From Obelidium mucronatum (Eukaryota; Chytridiomycota; Chytridiomycetes; Chytridiales; Chytriomycetaceae), in the NCBI GenBank assembly GCA_025765595.1, contig JAIVFH010000005.1, forward strand, positions 558,001 to 622,000: a stretch of DNA of 64,000 nt, read 5' to 3'. Below the pieces are notes generated by a model, which did no database searches, was not told the DNA's origin, and saw only the letters and a program-made list of their open reading frames with translations. Made by a program: the position numbers and the translations under genes. Shown in pieces: positions 14,841 to 45,449 of this stretch. Every line of letters begins with the position of its first letter. Position 1 is the stretch's first letter.

Positions 14841-16886
14841 TTACTTTGCGCCAAACATCTTCTTCCACCACTTCTTCTTTTTTGGAATCGTCGCTTCGGC
14901 CGCCGATGCAATAGCCGCACCACCTGGCGCCTGCATATATGCAACTGCTTCCTTGTTTCCGAGTGGTGACTGTTGCGGTTGCCCTTGCTGGGAATAGTAG
15001 TCGCCAGCTGCTGGTTGCTGCTGTGAGTTATATGGCGAAGGAGCACGATCATTCAATGCCATTCGTGAGCCCAGCTGTGAATTTGTTTTAGAAAGAATTG
15101 CACCATTTGTGCTCGGGTAGCTTTGATTGACAGGTCCACCAGCAGGTGAAGGCGAGGGCGACATTGGGAATTGCTGGCCGAGTGCTGAAGACGATTGTGG
15201 GTTGGTAGCAGCAGCGGCAGCCATTTGCTGTTGTTGTTGCTGCTGTCGGTATGCACGCTCTCGTTCCCGCTTCTCACGTTCAATTTCACGCAAACGCTCC
15301 TTTTCGCGGCGTTGAGCGTCAATGGCAAACATCCAGTCAAACACACCATCGTCTAATTCTCCAATTCTAGCCAAAACTAAAACCGACAAAATTTAGCGAC
15401 ATTGAGACAATATATATTAAAAGCATACGAACCTTTGTTCATGAGCCCTCTTAGGTAATCGTAATCAGGTGTCTCCTCAAACTTCAAATCCCTGCAATAC
15501 TTCATGTACAAACCAAATTCTTCCGGGAATCCATCGCACAGGTCTTTGACAGAAGTGCCTTGCTTCTTTTGTCCAATTTTCTCATACTTTTCCTTGTTGG
15601 TTGCAGCTTTAAGCCCTTGCCAGGGTAGAGATCCACGCAAAAAGTACATGAAAACATGTCCTAAAGACTCTAAATCATCCCGACGAGATTGTTCGCGTCC
15701 CAAATGCGTGTTGATACTCATGTAACGTGCAGTACCACTCAAACTCTTTTTCTCACGGTAAGGAATATGTTGCTTGGTTTTGGGGTCTCTGTATAGTTTC
15801 GCCATTCCAAAATCGATGATATAGATTTGTGCAGCAGCGTGTGGGTTTTGGGGAGAGTGGCTAGAAACAACACCGTATGGGTCTTTTTTATGACAACAGA
15901 TTAAGAATAGTACGCACAATAAAAATTTCAACGAAATTACCTGGATTATTTCCCGCTTTGGCGGCAAGTTCGCTCCGACGTGGTAAACGACCAATTAAAA
16001 AGTTTTCAGGTTTAATATCTCTGTAAATCAGATTCTTTTCGTGGACGGTTTGCACTCTGGTGATCTGATTGGATAAAGTTAATATAAACATCTTATCGGT
16101 CAACCAAAATTTCAAATCTTACCATTTGCTTGGCAGTCATACAAACAGTCTTAATCGAAAATTTCCTTTTGCACAAGTCAAACATGTCTTCCAAACTAGG
16201 ACCCAACATATCGCTACATAGAACATTGTAAAGACCTTCCGCTCCGTAATAATAGACATTTGGGACACCAACTGATAACAAAAAACAAATGGATTGGAGG
16301 CTGGTCCGATAACCACTAAAAAACACTCACCAGAGCCAGCAAGAATCTTGAAAGTGCGGTATTCGTCCCTCAGCTGGGGCACATCTGTCTTTCTTGGCTC
16401 AAACTTGATGGCAATTGGTTGGTTGTTGATCACATTTACCCCTATTTTTCGTTGTGGACATCAATCAAAAATGAGTTCCGCCCCTCCACAGCCCCACCAC
16501 CAAATGATGCCCATACCTTCGTATACCATTCCGAATGATCCTTCACCGATCTTTTTTCCAACCTTGTAATGCATTCCAACGACATTATGGCTGAGAGCAT
16601 TTTTCTTGGACGATGAGCTGGAAGACACCTGAGCACTGCCTTGCTGCTGTTGCTGCTGTTGCTGAGGCTGCTGAGGCTGCGGCAGTTGCTGCTGTGGTTG
16701 TTGGGAGTACGCCTGGGGCACAGCGGACAAGGGAACTATGCCAGAGGCAACCATTGCCGAGTATTGCTGCTGCGACGAGTACTGTTGCTGCTGTTGCTTC
16801 GCTTGTTGCATTTGCGCATTCGATTGCGGTGTTTGGCTCAAGTTGCGAACGACTGGTTGCGGGTTCGTTGTATTGGCTGGCTGCAT
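14841..16886 (-). CDS. Casein kinase 1, Yck1/2-CK1-gamma type, paralogue A
   Basis: Ser/Thr kinase of the plasma-membrane CK1 family. Gln-rich N-tail, then [47 protein letters not shown] (catalytic loop), IIDFGMAK (DFG), and the CK1 signature [18 protein letters not shown] followed by [18 protein letters not shown]. After the kinase come a charged helix ([15 protein letters not shown]), a disordered tail, and a basic-aromatic end [13 protein letters not shown]. Introns fall after the Gly loop, before GVPNVYYYG, before ITRVQTVHE, before DPYGVV and after LRGLMNK. Yeast Yck1/2 end in a palmitoylated Cys pair; this copy has none. It is one of three tandem same-strand paralogues. Confidence 0.92.
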
Positions 16887-17265
16887 TAGATATGAAGCTG
16901 GGTGTCTGGAGGGTTGTTTCAGGGGGCTACTCAGGAGATCGGCAACGAGAACTTCTTTACGTGGATTGGTCTGTTCGATAACTTGGGCTGATGGGTGTTG
17001 CAGGCAATCTCACACAAACAGCGCTAAAGTGGGACTTGCAAACAACGAGTAAAAATTTCACGTTTTGTTTCTGCCCCCAAATCCAAAAGCAGTTTCACCT
17101 TATGTGATACGGGGCGGATATTGAACTATATTAGATGTAATATTATGTCTGAATTTCGTTTTCAGTAGTATTTCTTTCAACCCTATTCTCTAAGTGAAAT
17201 AAACAAAAAAAAAAAAAACCGAAGAGAACATTCACATTCACACAATCCAACTCAACCAAAAAGAT

Positions 17266-19333
17266 CTAATTCCATTCTTTCTTGTTAAAGAGCTTCTTCC
17301 ACCACTTCTTGTCGGCGGAGTCATTTTCTCTGTCTTCCTTGTGTGGTGTTGGTGAGCGCCCAAAAACGTTGAACGATTTGCGGTACTGAGGAGTTTCTCC
17401 ATTTTGACTTCTCGCACCAGCACCGGCAGTTCCAGTGGCGCCTGCTGCGTGGCCTGAAGGCTTCAAAAATGCACCCATCGAAAACCGACTCTCAGGCGCT
17501 TCTCCAGTCCCTCTCTGAGTATTACTCCTAGGAATAATACCTTTGGGTACACTATCCCGTCTTGGCAAGTTCCCAATTGATGCCACACGTCTCACATCGT
17601 CTGCGACCGGTTTCATAGGAAGCGGCGACCGTGGACCCAGTTGAGAAGAGCTGGAAGGAGACGAGAGCATAGTCTGCTGTTGTTGTTGAAGTTGCTGCAT
17701 CTGCAATTGGCGGGTGGCTCTTTCGCGTTCTCGTTGTTCACGCTCGGAATCCTTAATCCGTTCACGCTCTTTACGTTGGACGTCCATGGCAACCATCCAG
17801 TCAAACACACCATCGTCTGTTTCGTTTGTACGAGCCAGAACTAATTGCAATATTTCTCAACTTTAGAATTTTGGCTTCTGAAAGAGGCAACCTCACCAGT
17901 TGTGAACAAGTTCCTCAAATAATCATAATCAGGTGTTTCTTCAAACTTCAAATCTCTGCAGTACTTTAAATAGATGCCGAATTCTTCAGGAAATCCTTCG
18001 CAAAGCTCGCTCAAAGGCGTAGTTCGCTTCTTTTCGCCAATTTTCTCGTATTTTTGCTTGTTTGTTGCAGCCTTCATTCCTTGCCATGGAAGCGATCCAC
18101 GCAAAAAGTACATTAGAACATGGCCCAGAGACTCCAAGTCATCGCGGCGGGATTGCTCCCGTCCCAGATGAGTATTGATACTCATGTATCGAGCTGTTCC
18201 ACTCAAACTTTTCTTTTCTCGGTAAGGGATGTGTTGCTTTGTCTTCGGGTCTCTGAACATCTTCGCCATTCCGAAATCAATAATATGGATCTGGGCCGCG
18301 GAGTGAGGACTTTGAATTGAATGGTTTGATACGACTCCATAAGGATCTGTTCGGTCCTTCAGGTTAATATATTGCTTGTCAATCAAAAAAAAAATAACCA
18401 CTACCAGCGGACTTTCCAATATTCGCAACTAGTTCACTGTTTCTCGGCAGTCGACCAATCAGAAAGTTATCTGGCTTGATGTCTCTGTAGATCAAATTGC
18501 GTTCGTGGATCGTTTGTACTCGAGTGATCTTTTAAGCACATATTAGCAACCATTCCCAGACAAAAAAGAATCCCTCATTACCATTTGCTTTGCAGCCATA
18601 CATACAGTCTTGACCGAGAACCGTCTCTTGCACAAGTCGAACATGTCTTCCAAACTAGGGCCCAATAAATCAATGCATAGAATATTGTAAAGACCTTCTT
18701 GTCCAAAATAGTAGACATTCGGGACACCAACTGCAGGTTTTAAGGCGGTTGGTGTCATGGTTTAAGGGGATAAGGGTCCAAAACAAAAAAAATGAACCTG
18801 AGTTTGCAAGGATCTTGAATGTCCTGTATTCATCCCTTAATTGCGGGGCATCCGTCTTCCTTGGCTCAAACTTAATGGCAACTGGCTGGTTGTTGAGCAT
18901 ATTGATGCCTGTGGAAATAATGATGCTGTGTCAGCCACCACAGATAATCGTCATCAGCCCCACTCTATCCCACACTATACACTCTACTTCCTCCGTTTCA
19001 TATCCTCCCAACGCCTTTCATGTTTTTACCTTCGTATACGATCCCAAAAGATCCTTCTCCAACCTTTTTCCCAACTTTGTAATGCATCCCGACAATGTTT
19101 GGATTCGCATTTGAATGCACTGATGAAGTAGAGCTAGACGTCCTTCCAGCAGCAGCCGCTCCGGATCCAACCATTGCAGGTACTTGACGAGGGGACGATG
19201 GTTGGTGCCCCAACGGTCGACTTGATCCCGTAAGCTGGCGGGTTGGAGTATCCGCCCCCAAATGACCCACAGACGAATTGAGCAATGTCGAAGACGACGT
19301 CGGCGTCTCTGTACCATACGGATGTTTAGACAT
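17266..19333 (-). CDS. Casein kinase 1, Yck1/2-CK1-gamma type, paralogue B
   Basis: Same architecture as its neighbour A: Ser/Thr-rich N-tail ([15 protein letters not shown]), [47 protein letters not shown], and the CK1 signature around [16 protein letters not shown]. The catalytic-loop Asp is present ([12 protein letters not shown]). The C-terminal tail ends [14 protein letters not shown], basic and aromatic without a terminal Cys pair. It shares with A the intron before DPYGVVSNH (about 18350-18405), which paralogue C lacks, so A and B are probably the closer pair. Introns also follow the Gly loop, precede GVPNVYYFG and ITRVQTIHE, and follow the kinase core. Confidence 0.92.
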
Positions 19334-19428
19334 TTTTAAATTGAATGACGACTATGAAATTATTTTCGAAGTTTGTTTCCCCCTTCAAAATCGCATCAAC
19401 CTTAAAACAAAAACACCGAGAGCCCAAC

Positions 19429-21619
19429 TCATTCCTGGTGGTGCATACAGTAACACAGACTCTGCCACCACTTTCTTCTCCTTCTCATTCCTCCCTGTGG
19501 AGAGTTCATTTCCGAGACAGGAGGTCCATGGACTTTTCCGTGCACCTTTTTTGTTGCAGACGTGCGTACTTTTGTGGGAGAAGTTGCTTGAAATTGTGGC
19601 TGCTGCTGTTGAGGAGAGCTTGCTTCAACTGTTGTTGGAGGGGCTGTAGGATTGGAAACTGCTACTGCACCTCGTGGATAATTTGCCGAAATAGGCGTTG
19701 CAGTGGCAGGTAATGGTTGCGGTTGGATGGTTTTCTTTTCTGGGATCGTTTTTAAAGGTGTTTGTGGCAATGGTGGCGCTGGCATTGGCTGTTGCTGGAG
19801 CTGGTTACCCATGCTGTTGTTTTGCTGAGTTGCTGTAGTTGTTGTCATGAGAGAGGTTCCTCCATTCAAGGGGCGAATAGAATCTCCTTGCTGTGGAGCA
19901 GGCCGAATTCCAGGGGTGGCAACGTTGGGACTTAATGCATTGGTAGTGTGAGTAGTTGTTGGAGCAGGAGAAGTGACAGTCAAATGCACTGGAATCGTTG
20001 ATTGTTGAAGTGGAGCAAGTGGTTGAGGCTGCGATTGGAGCTGGGGTGGAGAAAGGGCGGAGTTGCTGGACTTCGCGTGGGTTCGACGTTCACGTTCAAG
20101 TTCTCGTTCTCTACGCTGAATATCCATAATCGTCATCCAATCAAATATTCCATCATCCACATCATTTGCATCTTGGAGAACTAAAAACGATGAAGCTCAG
20201 ACATTCCGAAGGACCAAAAAGGTAAAACACACCTTTCACGAACAGACTCCTCAAGTAATCGTAATTTGGCTCTTCGTCAAATTTTAATTCCCTGCAATAC
20301 TTTAAGTAAATTGCGAATTCGTCTGGAAATCCCTCGCACAGCTCCTTAATCAAAGTCGTTCTCTTTTTTTCACCAATCTTTTCATACTTCTGCTTGTTTG
20401 TTGCTGCCTTCATTCCTTGCCATGGAAGCGATCCACGCAAGAAATACATAAAAACATGGCCGAGAGATTCTAAATCATCTCGGCGGGATTGCTCTCTTCC
20501 CAAGTGTGTATTGATGCTCATGTAACGTGCGGTGCCGCTAAGACTTTTCTTCTCACGGTAAGGAATGTGCTGTCCAGAGCGCGGATCACGGTATAACTTT
20601 GCCATACCAAAGTCAACAAGGAAAATTGCCGAAGCAGGGTGCGGCCATTCTTTAGTATGGTTGGACACAACGCCATAGGGATCTGGGTTGTTGGTTCCAG
20701 CTGCTCGAGCCAGCATTTCTGCAGATCTAGGGAGGCGCCCGATGAGAAAATTGTCTGGCTTTATGTCTCTGTAGATCAAGTGTCGCTCATGAACGCATTG
20801 AACACGTGTAACCTGCAATTCATTTAGTAAAAAACCTGGACCAAGAAGTAAAGAAAGTCGAGATTTTGGTTGAATTAATAAGGTGTACCATTTGCTTCGC
20901 GACCATAGCGACAGTTTTGGTGGTGAATTTTCTTTGACAGAGATCAAACATATCTTCCAAACTGGGCCCCAGCAAATCAATGCACAGAATGTTATGAAGA
21001 CCTTCTTGACCAAAAAAGTATACGTTTGGCACACCAACTGTCACAAGTCGTTTAGTCAATAGAGGCTACTAAGAATTACGAACCTGTGTTGGCAAGAATC
21101 TTGTAAGTTCGGTATTCGTCACGTAACTGAGGAGCTTCTGACTTTCTTGGCTCAAATTTAATGGCTACGGGAATGTTTGTAGCTATGTTTATACCCTGGT
21201 GAAGAATTCTGTTCAGTTATGTATTCCGCAGCACCCAGCACACCGCAGAACGCGCATCGCCTCGCATAAATAAATTAAATACAATAGTACACCAGCATTA
21301 CCTCATAAATTACACCGAATGAGCCCTCGCCAATCTTGCGGCCAACTTTATAGTGACCGCCAATAATATTTTGCTGCCCGTTCGAATTTGAATTTGTACT
21401 AAAAGTCGTAGAGCCTGAAAGACCAGTGGCGGCGAGTGCTGTGTGATCTTTGGTGGCGAGTTGTTGAGGTTGTTGTGGTGTTTGTTGTTGATTGAACGTG
21501 TTGTCAATATTCGCCTGCTTCGATTCGAGCTCAACACATGTATTGTTGACCATCGTCGCGTTAGATTTAGAGTTCGAGCCAGCCCCAACTGGGACGGGCG
21601 CAGAGAAGACGGCGTCCAT
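19429..21619 (-). CDS. Casein kinase 1, Yck1/2-CK1-gamma type, paralogue C
   Basis: Third tandem CK1. The start [16 protein letters not shown] was chosen as the first Met after a Phe-rich, probably untranslated stretch. Kinase blocks: [56 protein letters not shown] and the [16 protein letters not shown] signature. Unlike A and B, it has no intron before DPYGVVSNH. The long Gln/Pro/Thr-rich tail ends in [18 protein letters not shown], a basic patch followed by two closely spaced Cys. This is the only one of the three with a plausible palmitoylation site like that of Yck kinases. The divergence suggests separate locations for the paralogues. Confidence 0.92.
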
Positions 21620-33498: not shown

Positions 33499-33507
33499 AT
33501 TCTTAAT
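33499..33507. repeat. Target-site duplication, left copy
   Basis: ATTCTTAAT directly abuts the left end of the transposon and is repeated exactly at 38749-38757. Confidence 0.9.
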
Positions 33508-33963
33508 TAGGCTCAGTGTCAGCCTTTCTCTTTTTGGCTCGTTGACAAAAAAATAAAATTTCGAGCTTGCGAGAAAGGCTGATGGGAAATCTTGCATTTT
33601 TGACCCAAAACGCGACAGCACCACCGATGTAGCTCACCAACGCTCCGCCGGATCGCTACCAGCTTTGGTGGACATACTTTTGGGACAATTTCTCAAGGTT
33701 TGTCCGTGCGGTTTTCTGGGATTTCCGTTTATTTAACGTACTTGAAACTTTGACAGACCAGCGCCTGCCGAATATGAGCGCAAACACAATTTCGATACGT
33801 GTGTCGGTTTGCGCAGCCATTTTTTATGCTATTCGCGATTTCTGATGGCTTCGGGACTGTTGGCTGACTCGCTCTTGTTCTTTGGACCGAACTCGTTGAA
33901 TATGCAAAACGTATGGAAAAAAATGAATCAAAATATCAATAATATCATTAATCAATGCCACCA
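33508..33963 (+). repeat. Left terminal inverted repeat of the transposon
   Basis: 456 bp, inverted at 38293-38748, with one difference at 33598. It contains a sub-terminal hairpin (33519-33530 pairing with 33571-33582) and the first 51 codons of the helicase frame, so it also acts as promoter and leader. Confidence 0.93.
33519..33582. repeat. Sub-terminal hairpin in left TIR
   Basis: TCAGCCTTTCTC (33519-33530) is inverted as GAGAAAGGCTGA (33571-33582). An inner GCTCG/CGAGC pair extends the stem. The same structure is at 38674-38737 in the right repeat. Candidate transposase or host-factor binding site. Confidence 0.75.
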
Positions 33964-35839
33964 GGTTACTCGAACTGATCTGGGATTTGAAGCACATGAT
34001 TTTCAAGTTGGCGCTGTTGCTGCTTTGCTTTCAGGCAAAGATTGTGTGATCATTCGAGCTACTGGTGGGGGGAAAACTTGGGTCTTCTGTCTCCTTGCGA
34101 AAGTGCATAACCTTCTGAAAGGTACAAACACGACCTTTGGCGTAAGCAAGGAATGCAGTGTCGTCTATATTGTGTGCCCATTGATCGCTGTCATGAAACA
34201 ACAAATGGATGTTCTCAATACTCAGAATATCGGGTTGAGGGGTGCAGCTCTGGGCTCCCTTGATTGTGTTCACTCGGATAACGAAGCCACCATTGGTCTC
34301 ATAGCGTCAAGTCAAGTACATGTTGTGTGGTTGCCGCCAGAGTATTTGGTTGCAATGACGAAGGACTCAAAGGACCATCGAAAGCGTCTTGAACTCTTCA
34401 AAAAAACAGCAATTGCGTGGATTTTTGATGAAGTACATTTATTCATGGATGCTGGTGATGTTTGGCGTGATGCATATCAAGTTTTGGAGGAAGTTCGGCC
34501 TCTGTTTCCAAACACTCCAATTGGTGTAGCTAGTGCATCTATTCCTCGAACAGACTTCTGCAAAATGCTCCGCCGACTCCGGATCCGCGAGGATGCGGTT
34601 CATCTTGTTGGAAACGTTGACCGGCCAAACATCTTCATTTCGGTACGCAACCGTACCACCATGTCCCATGATTTGGGGTTCATCAAGACTGCCTTTGATA
34701 CAAAAGTATTCGATCCTCAAATATTCCCAGTTCTTCTTTACAATGATGATAAGAAAGTATTGGGAAGCATCATTGACTTCATTATTGGACCAAACAAGCC
34801 ATGTCCTCCAAATCTTCTCAAGTTCACAGCTTCATCATCTGATACACATAAAGCTGGTGTTATCTTAATATTGGCAACAAGACCTGACCTTGTACAGCTC
34901 TTTGGTGGAACTGGCGCATTTGGAAATGGACTCAACCCTTCAAATATTGTAACGGTCATTCACTACCGACCCCCGAAATCCTTCTGTAACTACTTCCAAG
35001 AAATTGGTCGGGCTGGAAGAAATGGGGCCAAGGCCAAGGCTATTTTGTTCATGAAGGATGCAGATTTTGAACTCAAGAAGAAGGATTCTAAAGCAATCGG
35101 AGTCGCAATGATCAAAAACAAGGAAATTTATTTGGATTTTATTTACGGGAAGGTTGTTTGTGGGATACGCGTTCCAACATGCCGGCGAAAAGGGTTTGAG
35201 GCTGTTTTTGAAGGTGGTTGGCCAGTAGAGACACTTGCACACTGTTGTGACATATGTGATCTGTCCAACGGTGTTGACAGCGGTGATGATAATCATGTGG
35301 AAATCGGGATTGATGGCAGAAACGGTAGTGTTGATGATTGTATTGCAGTGAACGCAGTCAATAGTGAGGTGGTGATGGTGCACAATCGAAGTGCTTGCCG
35401 TATGACTGCTGCAGAACAAGCCGAGTTATGTAACTCTCTTCAAGCAATTCGAGTTATTTTGCTCGCAGAGTGCTCTTTCGAATACGGAATGATAATCTTT
35501 CCGCCATTCCTCATCAACTCAATCTGTGCCGATGCTAAAGCTGTTGCTGAGAAAACTTTCCAATGGCCTGTGGCATTTCACCCTGATTGGGTCGACAAGC
35601 TGTCGGTTTGCGTGGTGGAGCACCTTAACAAGTATTCGAAGAACACAAACAATCCAAAAGCTCGGCTGTCTGCAAGTTCAGCAGTGATTCGAAGGCACGA
35701 AAGCCCGTCTGTTAAAGATCTGCGCAACTTTGCAGCCGTAAATGGAGGGGATATTCAGCTGGGAAAAGTAGCGTTGAAGCAGTGGATTAAGTTGACAAAA
35801 AAAGATGAGGCTCTTGCAGCCTTTTTATTACAAAACTAA
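33809..35839 (+). CDS. RecQ-family DNA helicase carried by the transposon
   Basis: 676 residues, no intron. Motifs in order: motif 0-like region with conserved Gln at residue 66; Walker A ATGGGKT (84-90); motif Ia CPLIAVMKQQMD; DEVH box (207-210); motif III GVASASIP; RPNIFISV (motif IV); GTGAFGNGLNP (V); VIHYRPPKSFCNYFQE leading into QEIGRAGRNG (VI, 397-406). A Cys cluster (VCGIRVPTCRRKGF...HCCDICD) fits the RecQ zinc-binding subdomain. The N-terminal 50 residues are encoded in the repeat, and starts at Met1, 13, 32 or 39 are all possible. Its likely role is in unwinding or processing ends or replication intermediates during transposition; that is inference. Stop overlaps the convergent gene. 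Confidence 0.9.
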   Translation: MRSHFLCYSRFLMASGLLADSLLFFGPNSLNMQNVWKKMNQNINNIINQCHQVTRTDLGFEAHDFQVGAVAALLSGKDCVIIRATGGGKTWVFCLLAKVHNLLKGTNTTFGVSKECSVVYIVCPLIAVMKQQMDVLNTQNIGLRGAALGSLDCVHSDNEATIGLIASSQVHVVWLPPEYLVAMTKDSKDHRKRLELFKKTAIAWIFDEVHLFMDAGDVWRDAYQVLEEVRPLFPNTPIGVASASIPRTDFCKMLRRLRIREDAVHLVGNVDRPNIFISVRNRTTMSHDLGFIKTAFDTKVFDPQIFPVLLYNDDKKVLGSIIDFIIGPNKPCPPNLLKFTASSSDTHKAGVILILATRPDLVQLFGGTGAFGNGLNPSNIVTVIHYRPPKSFCNYFQEIGRAGRNGAKAKAILFMKDADFELKKKDSKAIGVAMIKNKEIYLDFIYGKVVCGIRVPTCRRKGFEAVFEGGWPVETLAHCCDICDLSNGVDSGDDNHVEIGIDGRNGSVDDCIAVNAVNSEVVMVHNRSACRMTAAEQAELCNSLQAIRVILLAECSFEYGMIIFPPFLINSICADAKAVAEKTFQWPVAFHPDWVDKLSVCVVEHLNKYSKNTNNPKARLSASSAVIRRHESPSVKDLRNFAAVNGGDIQLGKVALKQWIKLTKKDEALAAFLLQN

Positions 35840-38301
35840 ACAATAAAGCCGCCAACTTCTTCTTCCAATAACAAAGTATCCTCTACTTCTGGCTCCTCAA
35901 CACTCAGCAGCCTATTTTTATTGATACGCTGCTCCACGTAGCCTGACGCCAAAAGTTCATGGTATCCAATTTCAATAGGTTTCTGAATCAAGAAGTCGTT
36001 TGAAACAATTTTCCCTGGACTTTGAATCAGGTTCAAAACATCGAACAGAAACCCAGTGGCATTTGTTGTTGTTCTTACATCTTGATGCTCTGAGGAGGAA
36101 TCACGTAAATCCAGATGGCGAAAGAGTGATTTCCTCACGTCGTTTGCAGTACTGGCAGTTATAGAGACACGAACTGTATGATTCCAGTTTTTATTTGATC
36201 CAGCGGTATCTTCCTTTGCTTTAAACGCACGGACATGGTGCTCCATTTCCAAGTCAGCAGCGTGGAATGTTGATGGATGTCCTTTGGGGTTGCAAAATCT
36301 GTTTTGAACACTGACGTGTCTGCATTGTTGTGAAATTTTGCTCTCAAGTTCAATAAGCTCCTGTAGTACTAGATGGCAATATCCTTTGCTGTAGAGCTTC
36401 AAGAAGGGGAGATACAGGCGATGCATTGATATAACACCATAACCATCTCCGTGATGAATGCAGCTCCTGAAGACAACATACTTTAAGACATGTTTGATGA
36501 ATTGCAAGCGGTAGTTTTCGAATGGAATCTTTAACTGTGGAAAATATTCCACTTGATTCTTTGGCTTTACTGCAGCTGACGGAGTCCACTTTGGGATGTA
36601 AACAGAACTGTCTAGAGTGGCGACCACAGCTTCCGAAAGTTGGAGAACCTTTACCAAAGTGTTCTCTCCACTGGAGAATAAAGCACTCTCCAGAAGTTCA
36701 TTGCTCAAGACTTCCAAGTAAATTCGCATGGTCTCCAACTGAGCATCACGCATATCAAAGAATTTGAACTTGTTTCCATTGATGCTTTTGTCTTTAAGGT
36801 ACGCGTAGCTTCCCAGGGAGCCTTGAACCATTGTCCTTCCTTTTCCAAACATCTCCCATGTTCCACGAACAATAGCCATCTCCATATGAAACTCTCCTAA
36901 AGCTGGCTTAATATGAGATAATCGATCGGAATCATGCGCAAGGGAGTCGTGACGTCTTTCATGGATTGCAGAACGAATATTAGTGATTGTACCACCATCG
37001 CCAACAACAAGGACTTCCAGCAAACCATCCTTTGGAATACTGAACTCTTCACCAAATTGAGAAAGAATCTTGATGGCGCCATCCGTTGTCATTTCTCTCT
37101 CAGGAGATATTTTGAGGGGTGAGATACCAACACAACCAACGGGCCTTTTGGGATGCTCCAACTGAATTGGAAGGTGTTGAAAGTTGACATTGCTCTTGAT
37201 GATTTCATTTGCAACAGCAAGAACCATTTGTCGTCTCAACCAAGTGATATCACTCTCAGAGGCCAGCAGATCTGCGGGCGTTAACACGTTGATATCAATC
37301 TTTGGGGTAGTGGATGAGAGGGATGTGTCACAATCCAGAATTTCGAAGTGGCCTCGCAATGTATGAGACTGGAAAGTTGTCTGGTTTGAAGTCGACTTTT
37401 GGTGTACTCGAAAGCTTCTTTCCACATTGTCAAATATCCATGCTCTTTTGAAGCCCTCATATTGTACAGGAACTCGCGCAAGAATCTGAGATGCCATTGC
37501 ATCAAGTCGGTCGTAAACTGTAGAATAAGACACCGACAGGCCATACGCTGAAAACAACTGTATAACATTCTCTGACGCTCCACCCATGTACAGGACTATT
37601 GCATTGTCGGACTGGAGATAGTTGTATTTTTGACTTCTGGAGTTCAAGAAAATAGAGAGAACTGACGCCAGTCTTCCCTTTTCCCCCTTTGTCAAAGTGA
37701 ACACTGTTTTATATAAAAGTGTTCCTTCAGAATCCCAGTCTTCCAGCATTTTAGAAACGTCAAGTCGATTGTCAACAGTAGGAGTCTCGATTGAAACAGC
37801 AGCAAGCTGCTCCAAATCACTGGTAAAAATTTCGGGAACTAGCGAAGCTAATAATTCAGATCTTATCGCAGGAGGGATATTTGCCAAGAGACTTTGCAAG
37901 ACAGTCTTGTGTCCCTCAACATCCAGGGTCTCGAACTGTTTTATGATTGAGTCCATCGTCGCTTTATCCGCTAGTTGTGGATCCGCAATTCTTGGATTTG
38001 CGTAAATCGAGATACCAGCATTACGAGAGATGGTGTCGTAAGACGTGTTTATGCGAGGATGATTCAACGAGTCATTCAAGGAAAGGGCAGACGGGTTGAA
38101 TGGGATTGCAATGTTTGCAGATGAATAAACTGACGCAATACCGCTTCTTTGAGGTTGAGCTTTCTTGGTGGCTGGAGTTAACATCGGTGTTTCCGGGTAA
38201 AACCGCTTTTGTTGACGATTGACTGGCCGAGAGTTTTCATCAGTAGCAAGAGCAGTCTTCCGTTTCTTCTTGAAATGAGAAGGATTGCATTTTGGTGGCA
38301 T
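35836..38301 (-). CDS. DUF6589-like protein, probable transposase
   Basis: 821 residues, no intron. Basic N-terminus (FKKKRKT, residues 10-16) resembling a nuclear localisation signal. Helical, Ser/Leu-rich region to about 230. Conserved-looking core: AWIFDNVERSF (Asp291), VLVVGDGGTITNIRSAIHER (Asp435), ALGEFHMEMAI (Glu470, His472), then GSLGSYAYLKDKSINGNKF. This pattern (FDN, GDxxT with Arg-rich helix, GxFHxxM, GSL) is what I recall of the fungal DUF6589 family. Asp291, Asp435 and a downstream Glu could form an RNase-H-like DDE centre, but I cannot verify this. The ATG lies in the last bases of the right repeat. As the only non-helicase gene in the element it is the transposase candidate. 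Confidence 0.75.
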   Translation of the reverse strand: MPPKCNPSHFKKKRKTALATDENSRPVNRQQKRFYPETPMLTPATKKAQPQRSGIASVYSSANIAIPFNPSALSLNDSLNHPRINTSYDTISRNAGISIYANPRIADPQLADKATMDSIIKQFETLDVEGHKTVLQSLLANIPPAIRSELLASLVPEIFTSDLEQLAAVSIETPTVDNRLDVSKMLEDWDSEGTLLYKTVFTLTKGEKGRLASVLSIFLNSRSQKYNYLQSDNAIVLYMGGASENVIQLFSAYGLSVSYSTVYDRLDAMASQILARVPVQYEGFKRAWIFDNVERSFRVHQKSTSNQTTFQSHTLRGHFEILDCDTSLSSTTPKIDINVLTPADLLASESDITWLRRQMVLAVANEIIKSNVNFQHLPIQLEHPKRPVGCVGISPLKISPEREMTTDGAIKILSQFGEEFSIPKDGLLEVLVVGDGGTITNIRSAIHERRHDSLAHDSDRLSHIKPALGEFHMEMAIVRGTWEMFGKGRTMVQGSLGSYAYLKDKSINGNKFKFFDMRDAQLETMRIYLEVLSNELLESALFSSGENTLVKVLQLSEAVVATLDSSVYIPKWTPSAAVKPKNQVEYFPQLKIPFENYRLQFIKHVLKYVVFRSCIHHGDGYGVISMHRLYLPFLKLYSKGYCHLVLQELIELESKISQQCRHVSVQNRFCNPKGHPSTFHAADLEMEHHVRAFKAKEDTAGSNKNWNHTVRVSITASTANDVRKSLFRHLDLRDSSSEHQDVRTTTNATGFLFDVLNLIQSPGKIVSNDFLIQKPIEIGYHELLASGYVEQRINKNRLLSVEEPEVEDTLLLEEEVGGFIV

Positions 38302-38748
38302 TGATTAATGATATTATTGATATTTTGATTCATTTTTTTCCATACGTTTTGCATATTCAACGAGTTCGGTCCAAAGAACAAGAGCGAGTCAGCCAACAGT
38401 CCCGAAGCCATCAGAAATCGCGAATAGCATAAAAAATGGCTGCGCAAACCGACACACGTATCGAAATTGTGTTTGCGCTCATATTCGGCAGGCGCTGGTC
38501 TGTCAAAGTTTCAAGTACGTTAAATAAACGGAAATCCCAGAAAACCGCACGGACAAACCTTGAGAAATTGTCCCAAAAGTATGTCCACCAAAGCTGGTAG
38601 CGATCCGGCGGAGCGTTGGTGAGCTACATCGGTGGTGCTGTCGCGTTTTGGGTCAAAGATGCAAGATTTCCCATCAGCCTTTCTCGCAAGCTCGAAATTT
38701 TATTTTTTTGTCAACGAGCCAAAAAGAGAAAGGCTGACACTGAGCCTA
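38293..38748 (-). repeat. Right terminal inverted repeat of the transposon
   Basis: Inverted copy of 33508-33963, ending CACTGAGCCTA. It includes the start codon of the DUF6589-like gene (38299-38301) and the same upstream ATGs used by the helicase gene on the left. Confidence 0.93.
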
Positions 38749-38757
38749 ATTCTTAAT
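38749..38757. repeat. Target-site duplication, right copy
   Basis: ATTCTTAAT, identical to 33499-33507. Confidence 0.9.
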
Positions 38758-38817
38758 TGCTCCTTACCGACACCAAAAAAAAAGAATTGAAAAAAAGGCA
38801 GTTGTTCACCCCTTCAT

Positions 38818-39110
38818 CTAGCCACCAAATCCATAAATCGTAAGTCCTTGTCTCTTCAACGCACAAACGACATCCAAACTAGTAATTGTCTTTCTCTGGG
38901 CATGCATCATGTATGCGACTGCGTCGCGGATAACAGTCTCAAGAAACGCCCCAAAAGTCGACGCGATTCTTTGTGTCTCAGACCAAACATGCGCTTGACT
39001 CCGCCACGATATGCAACGTTCGATCGTTGGTTTGGTGATACGTTGGGTTCGTTGGCTTCGTACTTTAAAGTATGTCTTCATTGGGCACCGCTTCTTGGTC
39101 TATCAGGGTG
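38818..39110 (-). pseudogene. Histone H4-like relic
   Basis: The C-terminal part reads FLETVIRDAVAYMMHAQRK, then TITSLDVVCALKRQGLTIYG, clearly H4 but with several substitutions (for example Y-M-M for Y-T-E and C for Y). Upstream, ITKPTI is followed by RGGVKRMFGL in another frame, so at least two frameshifts are present. Nothing convincing remains of the basic tail. Unlike the copy at 6935-7248, it has many amino-acid changes, so it is a decayed copy rather than a sequencing artefact. It lies 70 bp from the transposon end. Confidence 0.8.
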
Positions 39111-39351
39111 CATTCCTAACCGAAAATTATGAAATAGAAATTCTATCCAGATTTTCATCCAGATTTCCATATATTTATTCAAACTGTTGTGCTACTCTCA
39201 ACTACAAATCGATCCCAAGGACACGTCCAGCCTTGCTTTTCTTCACTTGACGATGAAGATGCGGCAGCGGTGGTGACAGTTGAAAGTCGTTGGAAGCACG
39301 ATTTACACATTCGATGTTTGCACGGTTGTAGCTCTTTTTTTTTACCAAGTT

Positions 39352-41322
39352 TTAGTTGATGATAACGTGCATGGATGGGTTAATTTTTTTTCGCATACCA
39401 TAGTACTCAACATCATCACAACAGATTCCACACTCTACTGCCATAGCAGAATATGAATTTACAGATGCAGTAGGCAATGTTCCAACGTCAGACGGAATAT
39501 CAATTCGATTCGTGTCTTCATCTTGGCAACGAATAACCACTGGTAGCAACACTTCCAGTTTGCGTTCATGCTCAACTTCTAAGCAAGCCAACAGAGATTC
39601 GTACTTGTCGTTGACTTGTTTCAATGCTGCTTCTTTTTCAATCAAGAGTGCTTCTCTTTGCAATCTGAAAAAAAAAGGCGTTTAAGTTGACAACAACAAT
39701 CCTAAAAAAAGTTTAACTTACTTATATTCAAGCAATAGGTTTTCCTTTTCTTTGTTGTTGAGTGGTACTCCAATGTCGTCAATCATCTGTGGCACGCTGC
39801 CAACTCTCTCACAAGATTGTCTTCTGGAGTCGTTCTTGTCGGTTGAATTCATCAAATCATCAGGTTCTGTAGTTGTGGTACCGGTAACCACAACTTCTTG
39901 TTGTTGTACATGTTGAATATGGCGATTCAAAGCATCGCGAAACACGGTTGCAACATTCAAATCACCTAAAAAGTAGTATTAAAGAATTGAAAAATTAAAA
40001 AAAAAAAAAAAAGACGAAGGAAGAAGATGTCATGTTTTTTTTTTGGAAGCAGGAAAAGGGTACTCAACTGAACTGAAACTGTAGAAACAGAGTATAGTTT
40101 CCTTTGCATTGAGCAGTTACAAGTAAAAGATGTTGCTGCTGCTGCTGCTTCTGCATCTCGAAATCTGGCGTCGACAATGCTGTGGATATGCCGTTTTCCG
40201 ATTCTTCTGATGCCGCTGTGTTACTTGATGGCACAGGCGGCGGCAGTAATGGTTCTGCATCATCCAAAGTTTTTATCCGAACATCTGAAAGTGCATTTCG
40301 ATTCCATTCCAGAACACAACGATTCTTGACCCCCTGTGCTGATCGGATTGGCAGATTTCCAGTCCATCGCAAGTATGGGAAGCTAAAAGAAAGGCAACCA
40401 GTCCCCAAAGCAATCTGATAGGGAAACAAAAAAAGGTGGTTGAATTCACTTGTACTTGCTCAAGACAAAACATGAAAAAAAAAATTCACTCAACGTAGTT
40501 AACACACAGCAGAACTGAATCATTTCCAGTATCATTGAGAACAGAGCTTTCCTTGACAGTAGAAGCTTGACTATTAATCTCTTCTTGCAGTACAACCTCC
40601 CATTCCAACAGCCTGTCCAGCGTTTCGTTTAGCATTTCTTGGTTACTTTTGATCTCTGATTCAGGTAGTTTCTCTTTCGCAGCCTCCTGCGTTTCAGAAG
40701 AAAGTGGGTGTCATTTAAAAAAAGGCTTGACCATAAATGACATTACACTTACCAAATCTTGGTCTGTGATAAACACGTCCGAAAAAGAACCAAATCCAAA
40801 GACATCCACCACTGCGTTTGAAAGACCTGTTCTCGATTCCGTGGCAACTGGAGGCACTAGTGACGGTGCGTGTGCTCCCAACGATGTTGAGGAATGATGA
40901 TGAATAAAAGACGCATTGTTTGTCGATTCAGAAAGTATTCTTCTTTTTGGAGGCGTTTCAAAAAGTGTGGATGGTTTCGTAAGTGAACGCGTTGGTGCTG
41001 TTGATGACGATTCGGACTGCAAGGCTTTTCTAGCGCCGCCAAGAGAAGGAAACGCGAGGAATGGCTCAGACTCATTTTGAAGGCAATCGAGAACAAAAGG
41101 ATTTGCTGCAGGTCGAGGGCCCTTGGGTTTTGCTCCAGTGCCAGAGGAGGAGGAGGAGTTTAGTGAAAAGGGAATAGGATTGTTTGGCAAAACGCTGCGT
41201 CGGGCAGCTGCGGCAGATGCCAGTGGAGTTCGCGGAGGGCCGTTTGGGTTGGCAAATGGACGGCGAATGTGTGAATTTGATGGAATTGAAGATGGTGTGT
41301 GAGTGTGATGCTGGTTTTGCAT
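39352..41322 (-). CDS. Unknown multi-exon protein with C-terminal coiled coil
   Basis: Starts MQNQHHTHTPSSIPSNSH and encodes a basic, Pro/Ser-rich disordered N-terminus with motifs such as PPKRRILSES. Later exons include NETLDRLLEWEVVLQEEIN, a block RWTGNLPIRSAQGVKNRCV, a poly-Gln stretch and finally a strong coiled coil (NNKEKENLLLEY joined across an intron to LQREALLIEKEAALKQ). Introns with GT-AG ends lie at about 40695-40750, about 40440-40495, about 39965-40075 and 39666-39720. The composition (disordered N-terminus, coiled-coil C-terminus) would fit a cytoskeletal or centrosomal adaptor, but I do not recognise the family. Exon joins are approximate. Confidence 0.5.
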
Positions 41323-41456
41323 TGAATTGCTTTGTTTTTTATTCTTGCATCAGTCGAAACCAAAAAAAAAAAGAGATGAAAAGATTCTGCTACAGATATT
41401 TTTTACTACATTCGTGTTGTTGGTTTTAATTTGGTTTGTTTTCTTGTTGTTTGTTC

Positions 41457-42715
41457 TCACTCCAATCCAACACAAACCAAGGGGAAGGCTCCCTCAGCAC
41501 CAGTTTTCGTGAGTCGTCCAAAACCCCATCCATCGTCATGTGTCTGCAATACCAGGATAGTGTCTCCAACCTTCAAAGAGAGCTCGTCTGGATGAGCAGC
41601 CGTATATTCATCAACAACAGCGCGTTCGCCCAGATTTGACGCACCAGCACCAGCAGCCCCCGTCTCTTCGTCCACAATGCGCACATAGGTCTTTTCAACC
41701 GTGGTTGTTGTGGTTGTGTTTGACACAGAGTTTCTGAACTGGGCCAGCGGCGATCGTGGCTTCACGAAGCTCTTTCTGCCGCCGTCGCCGAGGTACTTCA
41801 TGACTGGGTGGTTCTGCGGGAAGATGTTGTGGCGGTTGCTGTAGACGATCCAGGCGGCGGCAACGAGCGCCACGAACAGCACGACGCCGACGGCGATGCC
41901 GACCTTTGCGGCGGTGCTGAGGCCCTCGTCGGGCTCTGCGGCGTCGGCCTTGTCCGCCTTGTTTGCCTTATTCGCCGAGCCCGAAGCAAGGACGCTGAAG
42001 TCCGCAGCCACGGCGGCGACGCATTCGGCGGCGGCGCCCGCTGCGGCGTCCTTCTGCCACGCGGCGACCGTGGCGGCGCAGTTGGCGGCGGCGCCCAGGG
42101 CGGCCGCGCGCGCGCCGAAGGCGGCCGACGCCGGCGCCACGGCGGGACACGCCGCCGAGGCGAGCAGCGCGTCGAACGAGGTGCCGAGCGTCTGGCACGT
42201 CGAGGCGCAGAGAACGGCGGCGGGTGCTTAGAGAGGGGGGTGTGTCAGTCAACTAGCATCCAACTACTACTACTACTACTACTAGAGCACTCACTCGGCG
42301 AGTTGTTGGCCACGTTGCAGTCTGCAGAGTAGTAAAACACATCCCGCAGACACAGGTACGTCGTCAGGTGGCTGACGGTCGCCGCCTGGTCAGCGACACA
42401 CCCCAGATCAGCAGAGGGGTTGTAGGCAGTGAGCGCCGCCTCCCACGAAGCGGCAGTGAGGCCAGGCAGGTTGTACTTGGCTGCCAGTGTGGTTGTGTTG
42501 ATGTACAGGTTGCCAGTCCAAGGGGCGCAGGCAGCCGTTGATGCAATGGATACACACTCCTACATAGACGGTGGTCAGCCACTGTCAATTGACCACCCCC
42601 TCTCAAAACGTACTGCATGCGAGCTAGATTGAGAGCTTTGGACTACCGGCTGGAGTCCAGCGATAGTTGCTTGTGCCTGGCTGGCGACCAAAGCAAGTGC
42701 GATGATGGCCTGCAT
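41457..42715 (-). CDS. Single-pass membrane protein: Cys-rich ectodomain, TM, cytoplasmic SH3 (copy 1)
   Basis: Exon 1 encodes a signal peptide (MQAIIALALVASQAQA). After an intron the ectodomain reads ECVSIASTAACAPWTGN, LYINTTTLAAKYNL, TTYLCLRDVFYYSADC, CASTCQTLGTSFDALL, with regularly spaced Cys. An Ala-rich, very GC-rich segment leads to the TM helix (VGIAVGVVLFVALVAAAWIV) and a cytoplasmic tail ending in an SH3 domain (ALVDEY-type VVDEYTAAHPDELSLKVGD, THDDGWGFGRL, EGAFPLVCV). Topology and SH3 suggest a surface sensor recruiting Pro-rich partners, as with yeast Sho1/Fus1, though it is not their orthologue. The ectodomain is homologous to that of copy 3 (45450-46686). Confidence 0.78.
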
Positions 42716-42834
42716 CCTTTGTTATTTTTGATTGAGATGAAAATGATTGAACCTTGGACTGAATGAACATGAAGAAAAGACTTATCCTTGTATTTTAATG
42801 CATTCGTTTTATTTAGAGACTAATGGTGATATAC

Positions 42835-43626
42835 TTAGCTATCTAAGCAACGAAGGGGAAACAGTCCCACTTGGTCGTTCCGTAATATCCTTCCTTTTGC
42901 CCACCCATCATCAAACACTTCCAACAACTGAATGAATTCGCCCACCTCAAGAGTCAGTTCATCAACCTTGGAAGCCGTATACTCCATCTTTACAGCACTA
43001 ACTCCAGGACCAGTCATTGACACTGGCCTTTCGCCATCCCGGTTCGAAATCACTGGAACTACCTTTGCATTTGTGGAAGCAGATGATGACTTTAGCCTTG
43101 TAATAGTCACTTTTCTTTTAGCCGGCGGTGGAACTGTAGAAGCAACTGCCGCAGTTGCTACAGCTGCTGTGGTTGTTGTCGTCGCCGTCGATGCCAGTGA
43201 TGATGGCAGTTCTTGCGGACTGGTAATACCACCAGCAGTGTTTCCCAGTCTCGAATTAGACGATACAGAACCAGCATCATCAGACAATTGAACATAGCCA
43301 TGGTTCAAGACATGCCTTGACGGTGCAAGAACTTTGAGGTCGTGAACATTGGTTTGATCGTAGCCAATGATCCTGCCACGGCGTCGATAGCAGATGAAGG
43401 CAATCCCGCAAGCAGATAGAATCACAAATATTGCGACAATGATGCCTGCGATTGCAATCCCACTCAAGTGTTGGTCATGTGTGCTTTGCAGGGACGATGT
43501 AGTAGTGTCTACAGGGATCACTGATGATGGTGATGTTGCTGGGACAGGAAGCGCACCGCCGTCACTGCTGCCACCGTCTTTCCTGACGATTCCAGCTATT
43601 AGTTGGAGAAATACCGCTGGAAGCAT
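42835..43626 (-). CDS. Single-pass membrane protein with cytoplasmic SH3 (copy 2, short ectodomain)
   Basis: 263 residues in one frame. Hydrophobic start (MLPAVFLQLIAGIV), about 40 residues of Ser/Thr-rich sequence, TM helix IAGIIVAIFVILSACGIAFI (about 58-78), then a basic RRRGR stop-transfer, a Ser/Thr/Ala-rich tail and a C-terminal SH3 (EYTASKVDELTLEVGEFIQL, FDDGWAKGRI, GLFPLRC). It lacks the Cys-rich ectodomain seen in copies 1 and 3. Same strand as copy 1 and about 120 bp upstream of it. Confidence 0.75.
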   Translation of the reverse strand: MLPAVFLQLIAGIVRKDGGSSDGGALPVPATSPSSVIPVDTTTSSLQSTHDQHLSGIAIAGIIVAIFVILSACGIAFICYRRRGRIIGYDQTNVHDLKVLAPSRHVLNHGYVQLSDDAGSVSSNSRLGNTAGGITSPQELPSSLASTATTTTTAAVATAAVASTVPPPAKRKVTITRLKSSSASTNAKVVPVISNRDGERPVSMTGPGVSAVKMEYTASKVDELTLEVGEFIQLLEVFDDGWAKGRILRNDQVGLFPLRCLDS

Positions 43627-43718
43627 TTGAATGGATATTTGGGTAACCTTTATTTTAAATACAAAAGTTGTCGAACATGGTTTATTTTATTTTTAAATAG
43701 TATTTATGAGTGGTTTAT

Positions 43719-44726
43719 TTAAATCAGTGGATTTGAAAGCAAAGCACTGCTATTCTCAATCTCTTGTCTCAAAATGATACCCATATCATCCACATCAGCA
43801 GCATGCACTCGGGAAAGCTGCAAAACACGCTTCACTAAACCAGCTTGAAAATCAAACCCTTCATCGTCAAGTTCCCCTCTTTTCTCTCTCCACGCATCGC
43901 AAACTTTCTTTTCCAAAGAGCCAACAGCTTCACCATCAAAAGACTTGGCATACTTCATCAAACACAGATTCGCAAGCATCTGCGTCAAATCTTGTCCATA
44001 ATGCCCCGTCCTCCCAAGCTCCCAATCGATAATCCCAATTCTCTTGTTTTCAAGGTCAACCAACACGCTATTTGGCCAAAAGTCACCAAACGAGAAACTC
44101 GACGTTGCATTAATTCCATCGTTTGCTGCAGCACGAGACTGCCACTCTTCCCCGTTTTCGATTCCATAGCTTTCCGCGATAGCGAGGTTCCGCGAATACA
44201 TTCGATTCATGACTGGAATCAATGGACTGTTTTGGAAGAGTGAAATGTCGGGTACGTTCAAATCTTTGATTTTAAACAGGAAATCAATCATGGCTGTCGC
44301 TATCCAATCAATGTCTTTGGCTTGTATAGTTTGAGGTTTCTCTGCCGTCTTTTTCAACAGCTCAAACAGGCCAGTTCCAGGCATGTCTTGCAGAACCAAA
44401 ACAAACGCCTCTGGATCAAAAAAGTAGGGCTCAGGAGAGCTCCAAGCCGCCGCAGCTTCGTTATTGAATTGTTTGTGGGCCGCAGAGAGGGCAATGAATT
44501 CGAGATTGGCTCTGTCTTGAGAGAAGGCAAGGTTCGGGGCGGCGCGGACGAAAGGTGGGAAGTTCTTTACAATGAAAGTCTGGTTTTTTGTTGTTGTTGC
44601 GATGCGCCAGACGTAGTTGCAAGTACCGCCGTTCAAGAGTGTTGCTGATGTGGGGACGATGGCATTTTCAAGCGCCCATGTGGTTGTTGCAAGGTATTCA
44701 AGAACTTTTTGTTCGGTCTCAAGCAT
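43719..44726 (-). CDS. Aminoglycoside phosphotransferase/choline-kinase-like small-molecule kinase
   Basis: 335 residues, intronless. N-lobe with LLNGGTCNYVWRIA and Lys block FIVKNFPPFVR; hinge LVLQDMPGTGLFELL; catalytic-loop region FSFGDFWPNSVLVD; metal block IGIIDWELGRTGHYGQDLTQ. These are the landmarks of the APH/methylthioribose-kinase-like family, which phosphorylates small molecules; the substrate cannot be deduced. The usual His before the catalytic GD is Phe here (FGDFWP), whereas many fungal relatives have HGDFWP. The region upstream (44727-45449) shows no partner gene. Confidence 0.78.
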   Translation of the reverse strand: MLETEQKVLEYLATTTWALENAIVPTSATLLNGGTCNYVWRIATTTKNQTFIVKNFPPFVRAAPNLAFSQDRANLEFIALSAAHKQFNNEAAAAWSSPEPYFFDPEAFVLVLQDMPGTGLFELLKKTAEKPQTIQAKDIDWIATAMIDFLFKIKDLNVPDISLFQNSPLIPVMNRMYSRNLAIAESYGIENGEEWQSRAAANDGINATSSFSFGDFWPNSVLVDLENKRIGIIDWELGRTGHYGQDLTQMLANLCLMKYAKSFDGEAVGSLEKKVCDAWREKRGELDDEGFDFQAGLVKRVLQLSRVHAADVDDMGIILRQEIENSSALLSNPLI

Positions 44727-45449
44727 TTGATGGGTATGCGTTCTGTTTTTTTTTATTCAATTGTCGGTTATGGCGCCGCTACTTGACCACTTTTGTGGCT
44801 GACAAATCCCAACTTGCCATTGGATTAATCATCAGTGGATCACTGTTCAGCTTCCAACAATACTGCCCCACTACTTAATGCGAGTTGCCAAATTTCTCTG
44901 AATATGTTGAAACGATCTTGGTCTACCCCAGAGCCTGTTTAGTCATAATCCCAGCAAATCGTGGAAACAAAAGCAGCACTTTCAATCCATTGTTCGATGC
45001 CATCTGGAGTGGTCGGACGCAAGTCGGCTAAAGAGTGGGCGCTCTCTTCAATGCTGTCCTTTTGGTATTTTAACTGACCACCAGCATTTTTTTTTTTTTT
45101 TGGTCGTGCATGGAAGTTCCTATGATATTCCATATTTGTACGGTGTCTCTGAGAACACTGAGTCAGGCAGCAGAGACCTTTGCTTAACAGCATCTGAGGC
45201 CAGAAGGATATCAATCGTAGATGCATTGAAATCCCCGTAGTGCTTTTCCTTTGAGCTTATCTTGACGAAACGATTTTGATTGCACCTGGATCAAAGGTTG
45301 AACCCTTAACGTGCCCGCTCTTTCTAAAAGGGCCAGCAACACACGCAACACAGACAAAACACAAAAGATTTACCAAACCAAGCATGTATTAGATGTTCGA
45401 TGCCAAGTCTTGCCCAAAAAAGTTCACATCTTAAAAAAAAACAGTAATA
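44727..45449. other. Intergenic, no confident gene
   Basis: Contains a short minus-strand frame with a Lys-rich stretch (about 44939-45226) that has no recognisable similarity. It is possibly a relic. No RNA gene seen. Confidence 0.4.

Follow-up and report, generated by a model that had tools for sequence, protein, structure and literature searches.

A stretch of 64,000 nucleotides from contig JAIVFH010000005.1 of Obelidium mucronatum, a chytrid in the order Chytridiales (the window; coordinates are positions within it unless a contig is named, and its contig is C5 in the genome searches) contains a DNA transposon of 5241 bp at 33508-38748. Inspection of the sequence revealed 456-bp inverted repeats, a 9-bp duplication of the target and two long open reading frames, one for a helicase and the other for a DUF6589 protein. 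The element is probably an intact, autonomous member of the Academ superfamily, of the helicase-bearing AcademH type, in which the DUF6589 protein would serve as the DDE transposase. Its features are listed below by position, strand, description and basis.

33499..33507, no strand: left target-site duplication ATTCTTAAT (sequence; the empty counterpart on C483 has these 9 bp once)
33508..33963, +: left terminal inverted repeat (TIR), 456 bp, beginning with TAGGCTCAGTGTCAGCC (second genomic pair at C5:459269-464509)
33508..33531, +: terminal 24 bp common to the ends of the window family, a 13-copy family and the element C66 (95.8% over 24 columns in both comparisons)
33519..33530, +: outer arm of a subterminal palindrome, TCAGCCTTTCTC (DNA fold z -2.74; 2 of 200 shuffles as good)
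33571..33582, +: inner arm of the subterminal palindrome, GAGAAAGGCTGA (sequence and DNA fold)
33902..35839, +: RecQ-type superfamily 2 helicase, 645 aa from ATG (open frame, Pfam, PDB, TIGR00614)
35836..38301, -: DUF6589 protein, 821 aa, proposed DDE transposase with D291, D435, E687 and an FHxxM motif containing H472 (frame, Pfam, alignments)
38293..38748, -: right TIR, 456 bp, one mismatch relative to the left (repeat alignment)
38674-38685 and 38726-38737: mirrored palindrome arms in the right repeat (sequence)
38749..38757, no strand: right target-site duplication ATTCTTAAT (sequence)

The two frames are convergent, their stop codons share 2 bases, and each starts inside the inner end of a long inverted repeat. 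The helicase frame is open from 33809 and would encode 676 aa with a TTG start, or 645 aa with the ATG start at 33902. In public records the DUF6589 protein has a gene model (P0001, 766 aa) that shows 99% identity over 90% of the frame and differs at the ends, so that the label "intronless" in the preliminary description of this DNA, made from the sequence alone, is to be taken with this caveat. The only mismatch between the two TIRs lies at element position 91. A repeat search of the 64-kb window listed no further inverted pair of 60 bp or longer.

The assembly searched comprises 48.3 Mb in 694 contigs; genome-wide repeat counts are lower bounds, and very common words were skipped by the search. 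A second copy of the window family was found at C5:459269-464509, on the same contig and approximately 132 kb away from start to start. Both copies are 5241 bp long and differ by 1 base; the repeats of the second copy are perfect, with a matching base at element position 91. The second copy has its own 9-bp duplication, AACTGAAGT, and flanks unlike those of the window element, and for this reason a segmental duplication was rejected as its origin. Since the same 456-bp repeat is paired again there with another 9-bp duplication, the TIR pair is not a product of chance. The preliminary description had reported the 9-bp duplication, the 456-bp repeats with one mismatch and the two open frames, and had suggested a search for further copies; the sequence and the second copy bear out that the element is real. 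The presence of two insertions on a contig making up approximately 1.5% of the assembly would be in keeping with local hopping, which so small a number cannot prove.

A search of the genome with the DUF6589 protein yielded 31 matches, which we grouped into 25 loci. These include a second family of 13 copies of 5005-5007 bp, 11 of which carry perfect 9-bp duplications (none in C283 and C25); in C283 the repeats are 402 bp long and identical to each other. When the other 12 copies were compared with C283 over 4370 bp (5007 bp for C277), 10 were identical, C56 differed by 1 base, and C15 was 99.6% identical (16 mismatches and one gap). A third element, C66, has a length of 5299 bp and repeats of about 354 bp that are about 99.4% identical; its left end is doubled, and it has no duplication. 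Altogether, perfect 9-bp duplications of varied sequence flank 13 of the 16 full-length elements with inverted repeats. All 13 duplications have a purine at position 1, in what is a small sample. More divergent DUF6589 relatives are present at C93, C180, C5:189k, C128, C179 and C182, and several of their frames are broken. Among them, C5:189555-193562 holds a distant relative with 20% identity and a cysteine-rich C-terminal extension. On C182, two mirror-image DUF6589 fragments (36501-37771 and 39966-41236), each with a TAGG end and neither with a helicase match, have their ends about 1.1 kb apart; they represent either a fold-back arrangement or an assembly artefact.

In order to find empty sites, the two flanks of each of the 13 insertions with a duplication were joined around one copy of the target and sought in the same assembly. 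An uninterrupted counterpart across the junction was present on another contig for 11 of the 13 insertions, that of the window included, and no junction-spanning counterpart was found in this assembly for C16 and C95. The target was the exact 9 bp in eight of the 11 counterparts, had one substitution in two (C368 and C56), and was aligned with gaps in one (C15); C97 and C606 each gave two empty matches, among which there may be paralogues. TAGGCTCAGTG was absent on both strands from all 13 empty-site stretches inspected. The empty site of the window element lies on C483, which matches the left flank with 82.8% identity over 145 bp, up to the point where C483 begins, and the right flank with 84.7% identity in its initial 320 bp and 93.6% in the 2 kb that follow. 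Across window positions 42000-45000, C483 is 95% identical and is the sole other match. This is most simply read as the presence of two haplotypes in the assembly, with the window insertion heterozygous; the empty counterparts would then probably represent the other haplotype. A duplicated region is a possible alternative for the window and C483. Over 38749-45000, C483 is about 94-95% identical to the window, and the two haplotypes have seemingly been kept as separate contigs, as in a diploid or otherwise two-genome isolate.

The boundaries, the duplications, the second copy and the empty sites support the identity of the element as a DNA transposon. Copies with 0-1 differences over 4.4-5.2 kb, when the contigs C5 and C483 diverge by about 5% at window positions 42000-45000, point to very recent transposition. 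The recent movement proposed in the preliminary description is thus upheld by the single difference in 5241 bases and by the empty counterparts of 11 of 13 insertions; an empty site, which was also among its suggested checks, was found on C483 of the same assembly and not in another isolate.

The helicase matched the Pfam families DEAD (2.2e-14) and Helicase_C (5.4e-6). In a comparison with PDB, its best match was 1oyw (E 2.7e-24), followed by RecQ 4tmu and then by WRN, RecQ1 and BLM chains. It also matched TIGR00614 recQ_fam at 4.9e-39, a score under the curated cut-off of that model. Judged by these matches, the helicase is of the RecQ type. The partner helicases at five other loci align with it across the conserved motifs wherever the sequence is covered. 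In our grouping, an opposite-strand helicase match adjoins the DUF6589 frame at 22 of the 25 loci, and the two are convergent in all 22; the three loci without such a match hold fragments, namely the mirror-image pair on C182 and one on C194. The proteins of the families compared show 20-37% identity to those of the window. Since the convergent partnership holds across families as divergent as this, the helicase appears to be part of the transposition machinery, not cargo.

Pfam assigned the 821-aa protein of the window to DUF6589 (1.7e-34). Among the Pfam matches up to E 0.1 of six DUF6589 proteins, DUF6589 was found in all six, and the remainder were one weak PHD match (E 0.015), which presumably belongs to the distant relative at C5:189555-193562, and one weak DUF356 match. 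An alignment was made of seven lineages, six of this genome and P0003 of Podochytrium; for two of the seven the sequence was read as two separate pieces. Five acidic residues, D291, D435, D619, D683 and E687, are invariant in all seven, as are F471, H472 and M475. The spacing between D291 and D435 is 141-144 in the four single-frame proteins, that between D435 and E687 is 250-256 in all seven lineages, and D291 and D435 each follow a short hydrophobic stretch. E401 and E777 are invariant in a six-row alignment (A2) and not in the seven-lineage alignment. Alignments A3 and A5 are weakened by two gene models: the N-terminal half of P0002 is unaligned, and P0003 misses part of the region of the first aspartate, giving a spacing of 104. 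DDE transposases with an inserted domain include those of hAT and RAG1/Transib, and the layout of D291, D435 and E687 would be like theirs. Because a helicase faces it at 22 of 25 loci and D, D and E residues are conserved, the DUF6589 protein is probably the transposase of the element. The suggestion in the preliminary description that this element could explain DUF6589 therefore survives as a probable function, with catalysis itself still deduced from sequence.

Protein searches beyond the genome returned 1, 1 and 2 proteins, and the only one from another organism was P0003 of Podochytrium sp. JEL0797. The first two of these searches scored only 7992 and 7993 candidates sharing the most words, so that the counts do not imply that relatives are rare. 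No relative was found in two scans of viral contigs, and none of 14 control genomes gave a DUF6589 match.

The terminal 24 bp are common to the window family, the 13-copy family and C66, whose repeats have no comparable similarity beyond approximately this length. The 17-mer TAGGCTCAGTGTCAGCC occurs at least 47 times in the genome, compared with 0 for a reversed control, and the occurrences include one-ended copies and short copies resembling miniature inverted-repeat transposable elements, such as one on C376. In addition, an inverted echo of TCAGCC(T/C)TT is present some 50-70 bp inside the ends in all three families, which would allow single strands to form a hairpin. With 200 shuffles, the DNA-fold z values of the other ends were -1.87 for the 13-copy family (9 shuffles as good), -1.64 for C66 (13) and -1.69 for the left end of C376 (11), and at the right end of C376 the hairpin is another, larger one (z -8.66). 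Both arms of the C66 palindrome have changed together (CCC with GGG). For any single family the predicted hairpin signal is weak, and its recurrence in otherwise dissimilar repeats is the noteworthy part. Short elements with the same ends were found at C376:13316-13459 (144 bp) and at two further loci, L076 and L078 (about 80 bp); these are likely to be non-autonomous relatives. The short copies on C219 and C558 are nearly identical, their left flanks included.

The AcademH lineage of the Academ superfamily was reportedly set out by Kojima in 2020 (Mob DNA 11:15). In the published passages that bear on it, "RecQ Helicase in Academ" is listed (PMC3627910), DEAD and recQ_fam domains are given for fungal Academs, which are often annotated as host genes (PMC6416283), AcademH makes 9- or 10-bp duplications (PMC10045372), and its fungal hosts are Basidiomycota, Ascomycota and Mucoromycota, at low copy (PMC10799480). 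As far as those descriptions by other papers go, the present elements are like AcademH: they are helicase-bearing DNA transposons of a fungus, the helicase is of the RecQ type by Pfam, PDB and recQ_fam, 13 of 16 full-length elements have 9-bp duplications, the TIRs measure 456 bp (window), 402 bp (C283) and about 354 bp (C66), and the D, D and E expected of a DDE transposase are present in all seven lineages alongside D619 and D683. They differ from the AcademH passage in their chytrid host and in the 13 nearly identical copies of one family, as opposed to low copy. The preliminary description had called the element apparently undescribed, a view that by its own account a match to a named superfamily would overturn; the passages on RecQ helicases and on 9- to 10-bp duplications do not support that view, and by anatomy alone such a match, to Academ, probably exists.

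Several observations weigh against the assignment to AcademH with DUF6589 as transposase. Membership in Academ draws on anatomy and not on a comparison of transposase sequences. Three of the 16 full-length elements (C283, C25 and C66) lack a 9-bp duplication, and a TAGG-type end (up to 4 substitutions) was not found in the C93, C180 and C5:189k stretches examined, which omit one or both ends. No excision footprint was identified, and the empty sites fit copy-out transposition as well as cut-and-paste. Pfam matches up to E 0.1 of the helicase and the six DUF6589 proteins included no transposase family, and no PDB chain matched the DUF6589 profile up to E = 1. The invariant acidic residues number five, not three, so that the triad of D291, D435 and E687 is a choice. 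AlphaFold2, given three sequences each time, returned predicted local distance difference test (pLDDT) values of 31.8 for the whole 821-aa protein and 34.6 for a 576-aa core, models too poor to speak for or against the RNase-H fold that the preliminary description had asked about.

It seems unlikely that the elements form a separate, unnamed superfamily, in which DUF6589 would be a DDE-type transposase unrelated to that of Academ and RecQ would have been acquired independently as in KolobokH; at the same low probability, DUF6589 would define a eukaryotic DDE superfamily of its own that uses RecQ through palindromic, hairpin-capable ends, is not Academ and is still moving in chytrids. The repeats of about 354-456 bp and the recurrent palindromic end speak for such a superfamily, and DUF6589 was not found in the open-access literature subset searched. 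Kolobok target duplications are TTAA, unlike the 9-bp duplications seen here (13, of varied sequence), and Kolobok and KolobokH were disfavoured on this ground. A passage of PMC9587614 describes KolobokH as carrying a RecQ helicase and as found only in fungi, a likeness which means that the helicase by itself is no proof of Academ. The same source places the helicase of the rhodophyte Kolobok-1_CCri on the complementary strand, as in the present elements, and for this reason the convergent gene order does not exclude Kolobok at large. Against a separate superfamily, the combination of a helicase and 9-10-bp duplications is that described for AcademH, which has fungal hosts (passages of PMC10045372 and PMC10799480), and the lengths of 5.0-5.3 kb are near the mean of 5565 bp given for curated bivalve Academ elements.

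The remaining candidates fit the data less well. Long inverted repeats and duplications of about 9 bp are typical of Mutator-like elements (MULEs), and the present elements resemble them in both. That the element is a MULE with the helicase as cargo is nevertheless highly improbable, and it was rejected: the Pfam matches mentioned above include no MULE domain, and the helicase is retained as a partner across several divergent families, unlike cargo. It is also very doubtful that DUF6589 is an accessory protein, with movement brought about by the enzyme of another element or by a replicative, helicase-led mechanism of the Helitron kind. The deduced nature of the catalytic role and the pLDDT values would allow an accessory protein, and a helicase is present; however, the element has only two long frames, the other of which encodes the RecQ-type helicase, and Helitrons are unlike elements with long inverted repeats and 9-bp duplications. 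Telomere-linked RecQ helicase genes of fungal subtelomeres, as described in a passage of PMC4522978, are likewise repeated RecQ-type genes in a fungus. The present element differs from them in being discrete, with inverted repeats and duplications, and in lying more than 100 kb from both ends of its 713-kb contig, and such a gene was rejected as an explanation.

If the element is of the AcademH type, its movement may be pictured as follows. The DUF6589 protein would bind the terminal signature, and perhaps also its subterminal palindromic partner, cut or nick both ends of the element, and join them to target strands with a 9-bp stagger; gap repair by the host would then produce the 9-bp duplication. 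The RecQ helicase would probably unwind the transposon ends or the target, or process strand-transfer intermediates. Because both frames start in the inner end of the repeats and converge, the long inverted repeats probably supply the promoters.

In the neighbourhood of the element, a frame resembling a histone H4 exon (38818-39081, minus strand) ends 70 bp from its right end and matched the Pfam families CENP-T_C (2.4e-7) and Histone (1.8e-4, under the Histone cut-off). Judging from this frame, the element lies just downstream of a histone-fold gene. Elsewhere in the window, 15310-21196 contains three tandem paralogous stretches spaced about 2.3-2.5 kb apart, and a frame in the third (20162-21037) matches Pkinase.

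In the open-access literature subset, no joint mention was found of Obelidium mucronatum and transposable elements, or of Academ, chytrid and transposon as whole words. The relevant passages of PMC8290104, PMC12210899, PMC9970103 and PMC12730594 add nothing on the pairing of the helicase with DUF6589; two of them merely cite AcademH as background or in the references. Judged by anatomy, this kind of element, a helicase-bearing Academ, has probably been described already. What looks new is the link between DUF6589 and a transposase, the chytrid host, the very recent insertion, and the shared 17-bp end with its subterminal palindrome, a content that is modest but real. DUF6589, of "unknown function" in the copy of Pfam searched, would thereby gain a concrete and testable function, that of a transposase. 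If this is true, other genes annotated with DUF6589 could be reinterpreted as belonging to, or descended from, transposons. With its near-identical copies and their empty counterparts, the element also lends itself, as a natural system, to studies of the part that a RecQ helicase plays in DNA transposition.

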